A stretch of 64,000 bases of DNA from Allorhodopirellula heiligendammensis (GTDB lineage: Bacteria; Planctomycetota; Planctomycetia; Pirellulales; Pirellulaceae). How positions within the stretch are numbered: position 1 is the first letter of the stretch; every line of letters starts with the position of its first letter. The position numbers were made by a program, and so were the translations under genes. Of the stretch, positions 1 to 4,369 are shown piece by piece. The DNA is taken from positions 1 to 64,000 of the forward strand of contig NZ_SJPU01000006.1 of the NCBI RefSeq assembly GCF_007860105.1, written 5' to 3'. The notes beneath the pieces were generated by a model. The model was not told where the DNA came from. It searched no databases and saw only the letters and a program-made list of their open reading frames with translations.

Positions 1-1039
1 GGACATGTACGTTCCTGCAAAGAAGATGTGAGAATTCTCTTTGAAGGATGGCATGTCCACACTTTTTTATCCATCCGTCGTAACTTCCGCGACTTCAAAC
101 CCGGCGCACGCTTTAGTCGGATGAGCCGAATTTAGTTGTTACCGACGGAATTGCGGTCGTAGTTTTTGCTGAATTGTGACTGTATGGATTTGGAACCTCC
201 GATCGTCCTTTTGCAGAAAGAGGGCCACCCACTTTTCAGCTCGGCCTGCGGCTTGTTTTTCGGCCGATTCAACTACGATCCGGTCCTCGCAGAATGCCGC
301 CACCGAGCATCGGGCTCATTCTGATCCGATTTTCGAATATCGGCGCAGTAGCGACCCCGGATGGAATCAAAGTGGAAGGTTTTCCGAAGACGGTCAGGCC
401 GAAGATATCCCGAGTGGGTTGTCACGGGCGCAGAGCCAACCTTGACCGCGACGGCTGGCTTCCTCGGCGAGGTGTTCTGGGCTACCCGCTGCCCGCTTGA
501 ACACCCGCCCAAATCGGCTCACGACGTCGCACCAGACATGGGTATCCAAGCCCATACGTGTGAGGATCGGCCGCAAGTGCGCGGGGATCGCACTGACCTT
601 GTCACTGCGGAGTTGACGTCCCGTCCAGTCGAGCTGTTACCGGCCTTTTTGATGTCGCATTTTTGGCCGAATTGAGACTGTAGGGATTTGGCGGTGATTT
701 TGGCGTGTTGGCCGAATTGTTGCGAATTTTGGAGAAGGATTTCGCGCCGCACTTTTTGGCCGATTTGGTGTCGGAGAGCTGGATGATCCTGGACCGACTT
801 TGTGAAGGATGGATGGCGCCGATTGATCTGCTCGGCGATTCGGACTCTTGATCGAAATCCGATTGCGATCGCTAGGGAACGATCAATGCCAACTGCGCAG
901 CAAAAAGCTAACCACGCAGCAAAAATGCGATCGTTCTGAGCGAACGATCGCATGGACGTTGGTTCCAATTCGATGATGCTGAACCGATGCTCGGACTCAA
1001 CTCACGATGTCAGCATTCGCACACAGTGACTGCCATCAC
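1..1039. other. Gene-poor, probably decayed DNA at the left edge
   Basis: No reading frame here has a recognisable domain or convincing composition. The stretch from about 640 to 850 repeats short words such as TTGGCCGA and AATTTTGG, and a near-copy of TGAAGGATGG occurs near 42 and near 802. At 895-926 the word CGCAGCAAAAA occurs twice. ACTCACGATGTC occurs near 1000 and again near 1039. These look like the debris of mobile elements, but no family could be named. Confidence 0.5.
927..951. repeat. Perfect 10-bp hairpin
   Basis: GCGATCGTTC (927-936) is followed by a 5-nt loop (937-941) and its exact complement GAACGATCGC (942-951). There is no T-tract on either side, so it is not a standard terminator. 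It could be an operator or the end of a lost mobile element. Confidence 0.6.
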
Positions 1040-1336
1040 TCACGATGTCTGCAAGGAATCGGAGTTGGCCGATGGCGTCGGATCGCCGAGGTCATCTCGG
1101 TAGTCTTCCAACCAACGACGCAGGATCGTGACCGCCGGGACGAAGTCGTGACCCTGCAGTAACATCAGGTCGATGTTGTTGGTGTTCTTCTGACAACAGA
1201 AGCAATGGGCCAAGTTGTTCTTCGGATTCACTGTCGCTCGCAACTCTTTGCAATGGGGACACTGAAAACGAAAGTAGCCATCGCTCTGCTTTGAAATCGG
1301 ACCGTGCTGACCAAGTCGAGTGACCGTCAACTTCAT
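1040..1336 (-). CDS. Stand-alone CHC2-type zinc-finger protein
   Basis: This 98-residue protein resembles the zinc-binding domain at the N-terminus of DnaG primase. A CPHC motif near residues 26-29 is followed by HCFCC near 44-48 and then by an N-I-D segment, the same order as the C-x2-H...C-F-x-C...N-x-I-D pattern of CHC2 fingers. No TOPRIM or helicase domain follows: the protein ends about 50 residues after the finger. DNA or RNA binding is an inference from the fold. It has no obvious operon partner and sits in a region of mobile-element debris, so it may be an accessory protein of a transposon. The ATG at 1336 has only a weak ribosome-binding site. Confidence 0.6.
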   Translation of the reverse strand: MKLTVTRLGQHGPISKQSDGYFRFQCPHCKELRATVNPKNNLAHCFCCQKNTNNIDLMLLQGHDFVPAVTILRRWLEDYRDDLGDPTPSANSDSLQTS

Positions 1337-1403
1337 CGGTAAGTCGTTGCGAAGAAATCAAATGGGTCAGGTCTCTTTGATGAGTACGCCACCAGATGCA
1401 CTA

Positions 1404-1501
1404 ACAAGATTAAGGTGTCCGGTACCGATTAACCAGACACTGCACCGGAGGTGAGCATTGAAACGGTAGCCGGACAAGAGTAAGGTGTCCGGTACCGATT
1501 A
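1404..1501. repeat. Pair of 28-bp direct repeats with a GGTACC core
   Basis: Positions 1404-1431 and 1474-1501 match at 27 of 28 bases, exactly 70 bp apart. Both contain AAGGTGTCCGGTACCGATTA. They lie just upstream of the hairpin array and the Y1 transposase gene. This suggests that they are part of the same transposase-associated unit, or a dispersed repeat that it recognises. Confidence 0.75.
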
Positions 1502-1546
1502 TGATATATACCATCCTCTGCGCCGGAGTAAAGCAGTACTTTAACA

Positions 1547-1765
1547 GGCCACCGCACGGTGGCCTTTCTTGTTGGCGGACAGGAAGTCCGCCATCTTCTG
1601 CGGCACGAAGCCGCCCAGTCGTTGGTTCTTCCGGCCTGCGAAGCGGGCGACGCACACGACGTGCGTCGCGGCTGTTTCGGCTGGATGCCGCCGCCCTGGA
1701 TAGATCGCTGAACGACGGCGACACGGATGTCGCCGCATGACTAAGCCCGGTGGCAGGATGCCGCC
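1547..1765. repeat. Array of at least six small hairpins, REP-like
   Basis: Successive short palindromes are packed head to tail. Stems and loops are: 1547-1564 (GGCCACCG/CGGTGGCC, followed by TTTCTT); 1574-1592 (GGCGGAC, loop AGGAA); 1600-1614 (GCGGC, loop ACGAA); about 1634-1648 (GCCTGC, loop GAA, one G-T pair); 1647-1669 (9-bp stem GCGACGCAC, loop ACGAC); 1716-1735 (8-bp stem CGGCGACA, loop CGGA); 1749-1765 (GGTGGC, loop AGGAT, one G-T pair). Most loops contain GGA or GAA. The array ends 13 bp before the inverted end of the Y1 transposase unit. This arrangement resembles REP/REPIN arrays beside RAYT genes in other bacteria. Confidence 0.7.
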
Positions 1766-1778
1766 CGGCGACCCGGAG

Positions 1779-2584
1779 AAGATAACGGGACGGGGGTTGA
1801 ATCGACTCGTCCACCTCCCTATTCTGGGGGCTCGTTCGCGAGCTGCTATCGAGTCATATCAATGCCACGTCAAAATCGAGATGACCGTGCCGGTCAAATC
1901 TATCATGCTCTGAATCGGGGTAATCAACGACAGGAAATTTTTCACAAGCCGGAAGACTTCCAGGCCTTCATTCGGGTGTTGGCCGAGGGACTTCAGAAAT
2001 ACTCCGTCGAACTGTTTAGTTTTACGTTGATGCCCAACCACTGGCATCTGGTTCTTCGCCCAGTCAAGGATGGGCAGATGGGACGATTGCTGCGATGGGT
2101 CACGGCGACTCACACCCTTCGCTACCGCGGTCATTGCCATAGTCGCGGCGGCGGGCACCTCTATCAGGGCAGATTCAAGAGTTTTCCGATCGCCGACGAT
2201 GAGCACTTCTACGTCGCTTGTCGCTATGTGGAGCGGAATCCCTTGCGTGCCAAGCTTGTCGATTCCGCAAAAGATTGGCAGCATGGATCGCTCCATCGGT
2301 GGAATCAGCCGAAGGAGCCCGATCCGGCAATTCTATCGCGATGGCCGATACCTCGACTTCGGGGCTGGAACAAGCGAGTCGATACGGCGTTAACTGCTGG
2401 AGAACTTAAGTCGCTGCGAACATGCGTCGATCGCTCTCGCCCCTATGGCAGCGAGGAGTGGGTCGAAGAGATCGCCGAACGTCAGGGCTTGTGGCACCCG
2501 CTACGTCCGGCAGGCCGTCCACGCAAGCGTCCCCGGCCACAAAAGGACATCAAATGAACGATTCGACCCCCGTCCCGTTTTCTT
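1779..2584 (+). mobile_element. RAYT-type (IS200-like) unit with 26-bp inverted ends
   Basis: The Y1 transposase gene is bracketed by inverted repeats: 1779-1804 and 2559-2584 are reverse complements at 24 of 26 positions. The core is CCCCCGTCCCGTT. The right end begins 1 bp after the transposase stop codon. RAYTs are usually single-copy domesticated IS200-like enzymes that act on REP palindromes. The presence of clear ends suggests this copy could be, or recently was, a discrete unit. Confidence 0.65.
1862..2557 (+). CDS. REP-associated tyrosine transposase (Y1/HUH family)
   Basis: A 231-residue Y1_Tnp protein. The HUH metal-binding motif is visible as H60-W-H62 inside LMPNHWHLV, and the probable catalytic tyrosine is Y122 in the sequence CRYVERNP that is typical of RAYTs. 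The GHLYQGRFKS segment is also characteristic. Family members nick single-stranded DNA at the foot of REP hairpins. The C-terminal tail (about residues 195-231) is rich in Arg, Pro and Lys and probably binds DNA. The gene is full length with a normal ATG, and it lies between inverted ends and next to a hairpin array that may be its substrate. The frame shows no disruption. Confidence 0.9.
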   Translation: MPRQNRDDRAGQIYHALNRGNQRQEIFHKPEDFQAFIRVLAEGLQKYSVELFSFTLMPNHWHLVLRPVKDGQMGRLLRWVTATHTLRYRGHCHSRGGGHLYQGRFKSFPIADDEHFYVACRYVERNPLRAKLVDSAKDWQHGSLHRWNQPKEPDPAILSRWPIPRLRGWNKRVDTALTAGELKSLRTCVDRSRPYGSEEWVEEIAERQGLWHPLRPAGRPRKRPRPQKDIK

Positions 2585-2602
2585 CCCCCGTCCCGTTTTC
2601 TT
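2559..2602. repeat. Right inverted end with an 18-bp tandem duplication
   Basis: The right end carries two adjacent identical 18-bp copies at 2567-2584 and 2585-2602, each CCCCCGTCCCGTTTTCTT. A run of CCCCC then joins directly to the IS66 remnant. Only one such copy is seen at the left end. Confidence 0.8.
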
Positions 2603-2610
2603 CCCCCGCG

Positions 2611-2855
2611 TTGATGACGCTCGCGTACCACCGACAAACAACCTTGCCGAGCGGGCGTTACGTCCGTTGGTGATCCTTCGCAAGATCACGTTTGGTCATC
2701 GTAGTGAAGCGGGAGCGGACCAGATGGCGAAACTAATGAGCGTCGCCGAGACTGCGCGGCGTCATGGACATCGGGCGAGCGACATCTACTTCGAGTTGCT
2801 GACACGTCCACCCGATGCAGCATTGAAGCGGCTCTACGCCAAACCGGTTGCTTAA
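2611..2855 (+). pseudogene. IS66-family transposase, 3' remnant
   Basis: About 80 residues match the extreme C-terminal part of IS66 (TnpC-type) transposases, notably PPTNNLAERALRP, VILRKITFG and a tail on helicase-like spacing ending in LYAKPVA. Full-length proteins of this family are roughly 450-550 residues, so the first four fifths are missing. The break lies exactly at the right end of the RAYT unit, which suggests that insertion of that unit, or a deletion at its end, truncated the IS66 copy. No functional protein is expected. Confidence 0.8.
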
Positions 2856-3382
2856 GCGGAGCGATGCGTTGGCGTCAAACGATTTTGTTCAATGCTTATG
2901 CGGTCACCTTCCGCCGCACAACGCTGCACGACGGACTACTGCAAAAGCAATTCAATTTGATTGAATTGCTTTGGTTTGGATGCTGCGCGATCTCTACTTT
3001 TCCGAACCCGACTACCGCAACCGATTTCTCCTATGCGACGGAAGTCAGTTTGAATGATCCCATTGCAACAAACCATGGGATCTTCCAAATTTGAATGCTT
3101 GTGCGGTCATCTCGAAGATCACTGGTAAATGCGAAGCTAGATGGCCGGGGACTAAACTGTTACCGTTCCCCACGCTCAAGAGTGCGCGGTCGATACGCGT
3201 GGTCAGTATCCCTCCGAAAAGCAGACGGGCATCCAGACCACCAAGAAGAAAATGTGCCTTGCAGCAATCTAATGAAGCCTCGTTTCAGTCCAACGCATCG
3301 GGCGAAACATTGAGCAAAGACGCCTGACCCATTTGCTTCTTCCCGGCAGTGCGATTGATCGTCAATTTCCATAGAAGCCATC
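2856..3382. other. Non-coding stretch between IS66 remnant and nuclease gene
   Basis: No gene is supported here. Two 22-bp segments, 2888-2909 and 3091-3112, match at 19 positions and share AATGCTT and TGCGGTCA; they could be footprints of insertion-sequence ends. The stretch GGGACTAAACTGTTACCG near 3150-3167 may be another IS end, but no partner was found. Confidence 0.4.
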
Positions 3383-4369
3383 CTAAGCCCGCGGGAAAAC
3401 CTGGCCGTAAATAAAATTCTCAAAGTTATCTTCGCCGATGCATTGGCAGCCGTTCGCGGATGCTAAATCGATAGCTGATTTTGTGAACTTGCTGTTGGTG
3501 ACGACCGAAGTTTGCGAGCATTGATGGAGCTTCATTCCGGCGACCACCTCTTGTACAGCGGAATTACCGACCGAGTGATAGTAGCCCTTTATTTGCACAG
3601 CCAAGCGTTTAGTCCCTGCAATTACAATGAGGTCAACGCCTTGGTCGCCCGTTGTCGGTGTTTCTTCGACCTGATATCCGAGATGCTGAAAAACTCTAGC
3701 AACGTAGTTTTCGAAATCGATTCCACGCAGTTCACGCCATCGCTCCTCGTAGAGAGTTTTCGACAGGTTGTCGAAAGCATTCTTGCGTCGAGTCTCGTCC
3801 TCCTGTGCTCTCTGTCTAGCAAGTTCAGGTTCCCAGGCGGACAGTTGAGAAAGTGTTCCGGTGATATCTCGGTTCACTAACTTCAGTGAATCCTGAAGTC
3901 TATCCAACTGTTGTTTCGCTTGGTTTTTTGCGAGCTCATGATGATCAACTCGTAATCTTGTCGTCTCGTCGCTTCCGCACAAAACGAAATAGTAGGCAGC
4001 GAATGCAACGGCAGCCGAAATGAGTCCGACGACAATGCCTGCGACGGGTTGTCTGAGGATTGCAGCGACGAAGGCGAACGGCAGAACCAAGGATGCAAAA
4101 AGGCCTCCAATCAAGACAAAAGTCCGCACGTCGTGCTCGTCAACCCAACGCCTGCATCGTTGCTTGGATTTTTCCCAAATTACCGCATTGCTGGAACGCT
4201 TAATCTGAGTCGCGGCTGATTTTTGTTCCGCCAGAATCGCATCCTGACTTGCTTGAAGGTCTGCCAGTTTCCCTTTGGCTTCTCTGATTTTCTGCTGGAT
4301 CAATTCCGCGGCCCCACTTGGCAAGTCATCGGTTGCATATCGTGTGTCGTGTCGTTCTGAAATGAACAA
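3383..4369 (-). CDS. Membrane-anchored Mrr-like restriction endonuclease
   Basis: A 328-residue protein with three parts. Residues about 15-75 are charged and probably coiled coil. Two hydrophobic segments at about 83-105 and 108-130 look like a membrane hairpin, and a second charged helical stretch follows. The C-terminal part (about 215-328) is an Mrr_cat-type PD-(D/E)xK nuclease: GIDFENYVARVF leads in, D246 sits in the GVDL motif, and Q259-x-K261 lies in AVQIKGY. Mrr-family enzymes cut modified or foreign DNA. The start is a TTG 7 bp after the stop of the upstream gene, implying co-transcription and probable coupling; no ATG is available in frame nearby. By eye the gene is more AT-rich than its neighbours, in keeping with transfer. 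Confidence 0.75.
   Translation of the reverse strand: MFISERHDTRYATDDLPSGAAELIQQKIREAKGKLADLQASQDAILAEQKSAATQIKRSSNAVIWEKSKQRCRRWVDEHDVRTFVLIGGLFASLVLPFAFVAAILRQPVAGIVVGLISAAVAFAAYYFVLCGSDETTRLRVDHHELAKNQAKQQLDRLQDSLKLVNRDITGTLSQLSAWEPELARQRAQEDETRRKNAFDNLSKTLYEERWRELRGIDFENYVARVFQHLGYQVEETPTTGDQGVDLIVIAGTKRLAVQIKGYYHSVGNSAVQEVVAGMKLHQCSQTSVVTNSKFTKSAIDLASANGCQCIGEDNFENFIYGQVFPRA

Follow-up and report, generated by a model that had tools for sequence, protein, structure and literature searches.

A hairpin-array repeat beside a RAYT element in Allorhodopirellula heiligendammensis and its possible spread by means of a RAYT-type terminal motif

We analysed a stretch of 64,000 nucleotides from Allorhodopirellula heiligendammensis (hereafter the window), in which a train of small hairpins lies directly 5' of a RAYT-family Y1 transposase gene. 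Eight hairpins (hp1 to hp8) occupied positions 1546–1769, and their loop type on the + strand was A-(C/G)-G-A-(A/T). The features of the region are given below, where M2 and M3 denote end motifs of RAYT genes.

1359–1379, + strand: solo M3 motif (CAAATGGGTCAGGTCTCTTTG), remnant of another left end
1412–1426, + strand: solo M2 motif (AAGGTGTCCGGTACC), first copy
1482–1496, + strand: M2 motif heading the array element, at −57 to the start of the hp1–3 model
1519–1528, + strand: conserved box TGC(A/G)CCGGAG between the TIR motif and hp1, read from several copies
1546–1565, + strand: hp1, intrinsic-terminator-like, 8–9 bp stem
1573–1593, + strand: hp2, 8 bp stem, loop AGGAA
1600–1614, + strand: hp3, 5 bp stem, loop ACGAA
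1634–1648, + strand: hp4, 6 bp including one G-T, loop GAA, read from the sequence
1647–1669, + strand: hp5, 9-bp stem, loop ACGAC, with stem variants in other copies
1678–1690, + strand: hp6, 4 bp only, loop TGGAT
1716–1735, + strand: hp7, 8-bp stem, loop CGGA
1745–1769, + strand: hp8, final hairpin of the window copy, loop AGGAT
1778–1804, + strand: left TIR of the RAYT element, separate from the array, 27 bp, 92.6% to 2559–2585
1862–2557, + strand: RAYT-family Y1 transposase, 231 aa (PF01797, 45.3 bits, cut-off 23)
2559–2585, − strand: right TIR of the RAYT element, mostly repeated at 2585–2603

The first-pass annotation had reported a dense array of small hairpins, and this was borne out. 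Segment 1546–1772 contained 5 perfect stems of at least 5 bp, compared with a mean of 0.98 and a maximum of 4 in dinucleotide shuffles (0 of 1000 reached 5). Folding z scores were −5.2 (+ strand) and −4.0 (− strand) for RNA at 1540–1790, and −5.8 and −5.0 for the two strands as DNA at 1546–1772. Hairpins hp4 and hp5 overlap, with the opening bases of hp5 in common, and the hp8 stem can be drawn either with 6 bp including one G-T, or with 10 and one mismatch. By eye, the array appeared as two-hairpin units in train (hp2-hp3, hp5-hp6, hp7-hp8), and in copies from Rhodopirellula solitaria CA85 the element runs on past the hp8 position. An intrinsic terminator scan of the + strand found hp1 to be the sole array hairpin that qualifies, so that we rejected an account of the array by terminators only. 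Minus-strand coding (a 65-aa ORF at 1541–1738) was also rejected, as the frame was not kept in locus L002 when judged by eye.

The array does stop just before the RAYT gene, as previously noted; its end is ~8 bp from the left TIR at 1778 and 92 bp from the start codon at 1862. The gene belongs to a different element, which has TIRs at both ends and follows the array immediately on its 3' side. Its product has a Y1 domain and scored 64.5 bits against NF047646, below the cut-off of 80, and the GTAG rule found no REP in window positions 1–4000. A second copy of this RAYT in the source genome (L012, G000:C2:1714.5k) is 95% alike and has the same terminal repeats, and it has no array; its likeness to the window begins at ~1768. 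Close to the RAYT region, the window also encodes an Mrr_cat restriction endonuclease-like protein (3383–4369, − strand). Loci L134–L137, on contig 20 and contig 2 of R. solitaria, contained near-identical RAYT genes with the left TIR GAAGAAAAAGGTGACGGGGGTAGTTTT; three of these genes lie close together on one contig, the TIR occurs up to three times in tandem, and the group looks like a recently active TIRtron. In the available part of PMC3733652, R. baltica is named as one of the species with many genes for tyrosine transposases and many flanking repeats, GTAG REPs are described from it, and TIR elements are said to occur as single, dimeric or grouped repeats. Because REPs, tyrosine transposases and flanking repeats are thus reported in R. 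baltica, the RAYT and TIR world around the array is already known, as far as that part of the source extends.

The annotation had also anticipated further copies in clusters, and we found these in the source genome (G000) and in relatives, mostly clustered. A DNA search detected three partial array copies elsewhere in G000 and more in relatives, chiefly R. solitaria (G006) and Neorhodopirellula pilleata Pla100 (G010). We then used R1, a covariance model of hp1–3 built from 15 sequences, which gave 40 matches in 13 genomes at E ≤ 0.01. The spread was uneven: 5 matches in G000, 17 in G006, 11 in G010, 3 in G001, 2 in G002, and 1 each in G008 and G012, with no match at this threshold in 6 of the 13 genomes. 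Matches were mostly intergenic, as judged by simple greedy ORF picking. Context was analysed for 33 of the 40 matches, and the window array was added separately for all counts on 34 arrays (hairpins, feet and TIR motifs). Left out of the context set were the degenerate match at window 3187, matches G010:C4:321753, G012:C95:98502 and G006:C19:597, and two parts of neighbouring arrays (G006:C19:62384 and C1:484887). The degenerate match is a second hp1–3 segment of the window (3187–3276, − strand), scoring 29 bits with R1.

Array copies were modular, some having hp1–3 only and some the later hairpins only, and long G006 copies extend several hundred bases past hp8. For two G010 arrays, a flanking gene was traced to 17 loci in relatives, and R1 found no match at any of them. 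Only one flank of these loci was aligned, and they therefore indicate absence of the array beside the gene, not a clean empty site; neither a target-site duplication nor a clean empty site was shown for the array. In locus L098 (G006:C24:8001–28000), two arrays 7.1 kb apart, with an ORF for a tyrosine recombinase between them, had the same model scores and downstream ORF pattern, which suggests a tandem duplication.

The stems covary between copies, a further prediction of the annotation that held. At the hp7 position, 98.6% of cells were paired in 10 distinct copies, and both sides had changed in 6 of 7 pairs, versus 1.4 in shuffles and at most 1 in slid controls. Both-side changes affected 5 of 22 pairs in hp1–3 (15 copies), versus 1.9 in shuffles, and the hp1 position carried two unrelated stems among copies, AGGCCACC... 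and CGGTAGCC.... When the loops in 441 kb of array loci were counted with no motif given beforehand, ACGAA, GGA, GGGA and ACAAG came first; ACGAA was absent from the top loops listed for 192 kb of control stretches. The 34 array segments held 72 hairpins in all versus 12.9 in shuffles (shuffled counts not de-duplicated). Among 51 distinct hairpins of at least 6 bp in these segments, SGA/GAA loops were on the array strand in 30 cases and on the other strand in 3, a de-duplicated count. We concluded that the compensatory stem changes and the 30:3 loop orientation point to constraint or to a copying mechanism.

The array belongs to a longer repeat, which starts at a short motif near ~1472 and was overlooked by the first-pass annotation. 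Inverted end motifs were found around the RAYT genes of three genomes. M1 is the window type. M2 (AAGGTGTCCGGTACC) is the end motif of RAYTs L141, L146 and L147 and bounds RAYTs of G006 and G010, and M3 (AAATGGGTCAGGCCTCTTTG) is that of RAYTs L011 and L139; at G000:C2:1716.9k, a RAYT has a near-identical M3 (GGCCTC form) as its perfect 23-bp TIR. No M2-type RAYT was among the matches listed for G000, though this genome has M2-headed arrays. Homology among M2-headed copies starts at the motif (~1471–1472 in the window). A TIR motif lay within 100 nt 5' of 18 of the 34 arrays, always on the array's strand. Most of these motifs (13) stood between −52 and −58; two were at −44, and the remaining three at −12/−40, −9 and −77. 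Twelve control stretches (192 kb) contained one TIR motif. The patterns used found no TIR motif within 100 nt in the other 16 arrays, some of which, by eye, are degenerate or are without the left part. Conversely, 6 of 30 M3 copies in the three genomes were located within ~200 bp 5' of an array, in the same orientation. The gap from the motif to the TGCACCGGAG box was mostly 17 nt, and 9 nt in a sub-type, when copies were compared by eye.

The order in the window is M3, M2, M2-array, M1-RAYT-M1', and all left ends point one way. In the window, the inverted motifs 3' of the array belonged to the RAYT element, apart from an additional M3; for each of the other 33 arrays, the 4 kb on the 3' side contained none. 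The element is therefore one-ended, unlike a TIR-bounded MITE: it carries the TIR of TIRYTs of the genus, as a TIRtron-derived repeat should (M1, M2 and M3 all stand at RAYT ends), and lacks the inverted TIRs at both ends that a MITE-like TIRtron derivative should have. What links the array to RAYTs is the solo TIR motif that heads it, not the hairpins. The array as a RAYT leader was tried separately and rejected; a box, CCTCTGCTCCGGAGT, near the start of RAYT L002 shows a resemblance, and 24 RAYT leaders, by eye, share only the TIR motif.

Neighbouring genes were scored for 4 of the 5 matches in G000, 15 of 17 in G006 and 11 of 11 in G010. Same-strand RHS cores (TIGR03696) were present up to 3.5 kb 5' of 2 of 4, 5 of 15 and 0 of 11 arrays, respectively. 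Hence 7 of 30 arrays in the three genomes were 3' of RHS genes on the same strand, and none of the 30 had an RHS core 3' on the same strand. Binomial estimates that assume random placement were 6e-6 (G000) and 2e-9 (G006). By tblastn with two pieces of the RHS core, the core was found 5' on the same strand at 8 of 27 oriented loci, with a weak 3' match in 2.

In G000, 3 of 4 arrays had a RAYT-family gene on their own strand within 2.5 kb 3', as did 2 of 15 in G006; arrays adjoin such genes more often than expected in these two genomes. Y1 proximity was computed for G000 and G006, and was judged for G010 from tblastn of 16-kb stretches. In L097, the tblastn searches of these stretches placed a RAYT fragment immediately on the 3' side of the array. 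They also gave Y1 matches 3' in the two G025 loci L017 and L027 (chosen after being seen and outside the neighbour counts), whereas in several others the Y1 matches lay 5' or on the other strand. One Y1 match was found in 12 control stretches. The N. pilleata arrays had neither RHS nor a RAYT directly 3', which indicates that neither neighbour is needed. The earlier expectation that arrays lie near RAYTs was supported as an enrichment in G000 and G006.

Other mobile genes found at array edges were an X element, with a Mu/rve transposase and an AAA ATPase, and genes for PD-(D/E)XK transposases (PDDEXK_2). The X element, seen at window 632–1351 and at L079:8411–11105, comprises a CHC2-type Zn-ribbon ORF, the AAA ATPase and the Mu/rve-type transposase; it had 15 matches in three genomes, many beside arrays or RHS genes.

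We observed a repeat of patchy spread, with covarying stems, a dominant loop orientation, a TIR motif that is fixed in place and points one way, and an excess 3' of RHS genes. Our tentative interpretation is that the array is a copy of a dispersed, modular, probably non-autonomous, TIR-headed mobile repeat of the Rhodopirellula group, served by RAYT-family enzymes. Such an element would consist of a single TIRYT-type terminal motif, ~17 nt, the TGCACCGGAG box, the terminator-like hp1, and two-hairpin units with purine-rich A-S-G-A-W loops, nearly all on one strand. The TIR motif may be where RAYT-family HUH/Y1 enzymes nick single-stranded DNA or join it, with the hairpins holding the displaced strand in folded form. 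If insertion always has the same orientation, elements would be stacked head to tail, as in the window series M3, M2, M2-array, M1-RAYT, and this stacking may take place in tolerant sites, for example the 3' flanks of RHS toxin genes. Several findings argue against the mobile-repeat reading: the element is one-ended, the patterns used found no motif near 16 of 34 arrays, and G000 has M2-headed arrays but no M2-type RAYT among its listed matches. In addition, three motif types occur at one position, which could also mean repeated insertion at a hot spot, and in G010 the arrays have no RHS gene nearby and no RAYT adjoining them 3'.

The main rival is a structured RNA, possibly mobile itself, of which the window would hold a 5' fragment; we consider this possible but doubtful. 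It is raised because the one-strand, purine-rich loops and linkers and the freely exchanged helices resemble a large folded RNA. A longer G006 copy had a folding z of −4.9 and, in its + fold, unpaired bases comprising 79 A, 63 G, 24 T and 25 C; the AT skew of long copies was +0.2 to +0.4. The compensatory stems are also consistent with an RNA, as is the preference of hp1 for G-U over A-C (29 vs 9). In contrast, the G-U excess was missing in hp2 and hp3 together (26 vs 27), the − strand had a folding z similar to that of the + strand, and the window array was without purine skew. Moreover, hp1 is terminator-like on the + strand and stands ahead of the rest, so that a transcript from upstream would stop there. 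We found no sigma-70-like promoter in 1380–1860. Against Rfam, none of four long loci reached a family's gathering score, and window 1300–2700 had only sub-threshold matches, none credible. We keep both readings, RNA and single-stranded DNA, and infer how the element would act and move.

An unlikely alternative is that the arrays are passive, hairpin-rich intergenic debris of hypervariable regions behind RHS genes, alongside RAYTs, the X transposon and PD-(D/E)XK transposase genes. The place of the TIR motif would then be fixed since TIR repeats target a terminator-like region. The finding of RAYT, X-element and PDDEXK_2 genes at array edges fits this idea, as do the three TIR motif types that share one position. 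However, some arrays are away from such mobile genes, and the compensatory stems and biased loop orientation imply constraint or copying.

It is quite unlikely that the arrays represent a new class of mobile element: TIR-headed, one-ended and structured as a single strand (DNA or RNA), which would swap TIR types for different RAYT-family enzymes and act as an orientation-specific landing or recombination platform behind RHS polymorphic toxin genes. Full copies would be several hundred bases long.

The first-pass annotation had proposed that the array is a diverged REP/REPIN of the window RAYT, which our data make very unlikely. The array does adjoin a RAYT in the window, the 3' Y1 genes of G000 and G006 arrays agree with the proposal, and many copies, mostly intergenic, are as expected of REPs. 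But the tetranucleotide foot is missing: with a foot defined as GTAG/GTGG or CGTC 0–2 nt 5' of the stem, GTAG/GTGG preceded 1 of 34 distinct SGA-loop hairpins and CGTC 1 of 34. The 5' CnGA foot of class 3 Y1-associated structures, a class taken from the available part of PMC6006769, preceded 0 of 34. The hairpins run in one orientation rather than as two inverted REPs, and the N. pilleata arrays have no RAYT directly 3'. Furthermore, a REPtron has its RAYT flanked and every full gene copy associated with repeats, whereas the array lies only 5' of a RAYT that is bounded by its own TIRs, and the second copy, L012, has none. The repeat thus belongs to the RAYT-linked world that the annotation suggested, and is not a REP of this enzyme.

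As a positive control, the source genome contains a classical RAYT amid 13 GTAG REPs (G000:C2:1142321; L014, 1140872–1144243). These REPs have the sequence GTAGGGCCGGTTCCYACCGGCC or a one-base-shorter form, occur on both strands and are spaced ~235 bp; L014 is a textbook REPtron. Other REP-like families are present at L151 (G000:C2:475138–476846) and L152 (G006:C21:9812–11511), where Y1 genes are bordered by inverted sequences in several copies, such as AGCCGAGTCTCTCCGAGACTCGG or CGGCTCGGAGAGCCGAGCGAC. A CsrB/RsmZ-like sponge RNA with GGA loops is hardly credible: loops such as CAGGATG resemble the Csr consensus, but GGA occurred in 15 of 34 distinct SGA-loop hairpins and CGA in the other 19, and the copies are dispersed and patchy.

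No description of the array repeat was found in the available parts, supplementary files aside, of literature on RAYT/REPIN/TIRYT, Rhodopirellula repeats, Planctomycetes Rhs and structured RNA. The array is a real, lineage-specific hairpin repeat with a RAYT-type terminal motif, probably undescribed so far. The available part of PMC6006769 reports no REP-like sequences beside TIR-type (subclass 2.1) enzymes. A repeat that combines covarying hairpins with a TIR motif at one fixed place is a concrete candidate for a further substrate of these enzymes, and the excess of arrays behind RHS genes suggests a link to exchange sites of toxin-immunity cassettes.

Compared with known systems, the array resembles REP/BIME/REPIN sequences with their RAYTs in its small intergenic palindromes, clusters, nearby Y1 transposase and compensatory stems. 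It differs in that it lacks the GTAG/CGTC foot, its stems vary between hairpins while the loops stay, it has one orientation, and the RAYT is not hairpin-flanked on both sides. Large structured bacterial noncoding RNAs are similar in having covarying helices, and the unpaired + strand of long copies is purine-rich, but the array has no Rfam match and has a terminator-like hairpin at its 5' side. The window RAYT corresponds to the TIRYTs of Di Nocera et al. 2013 (PMC3733652), or subclass 2.1 of PMC6006769, as these are defined in the available parts of both papers; the inverted terminal repeats that bound it are unrelated to GTAG repeats. The descriptions in those parts are of TIR repeats alone, whereas in the present repeat a solo TIR is followed by a series of hairpins whose loops are conserved.
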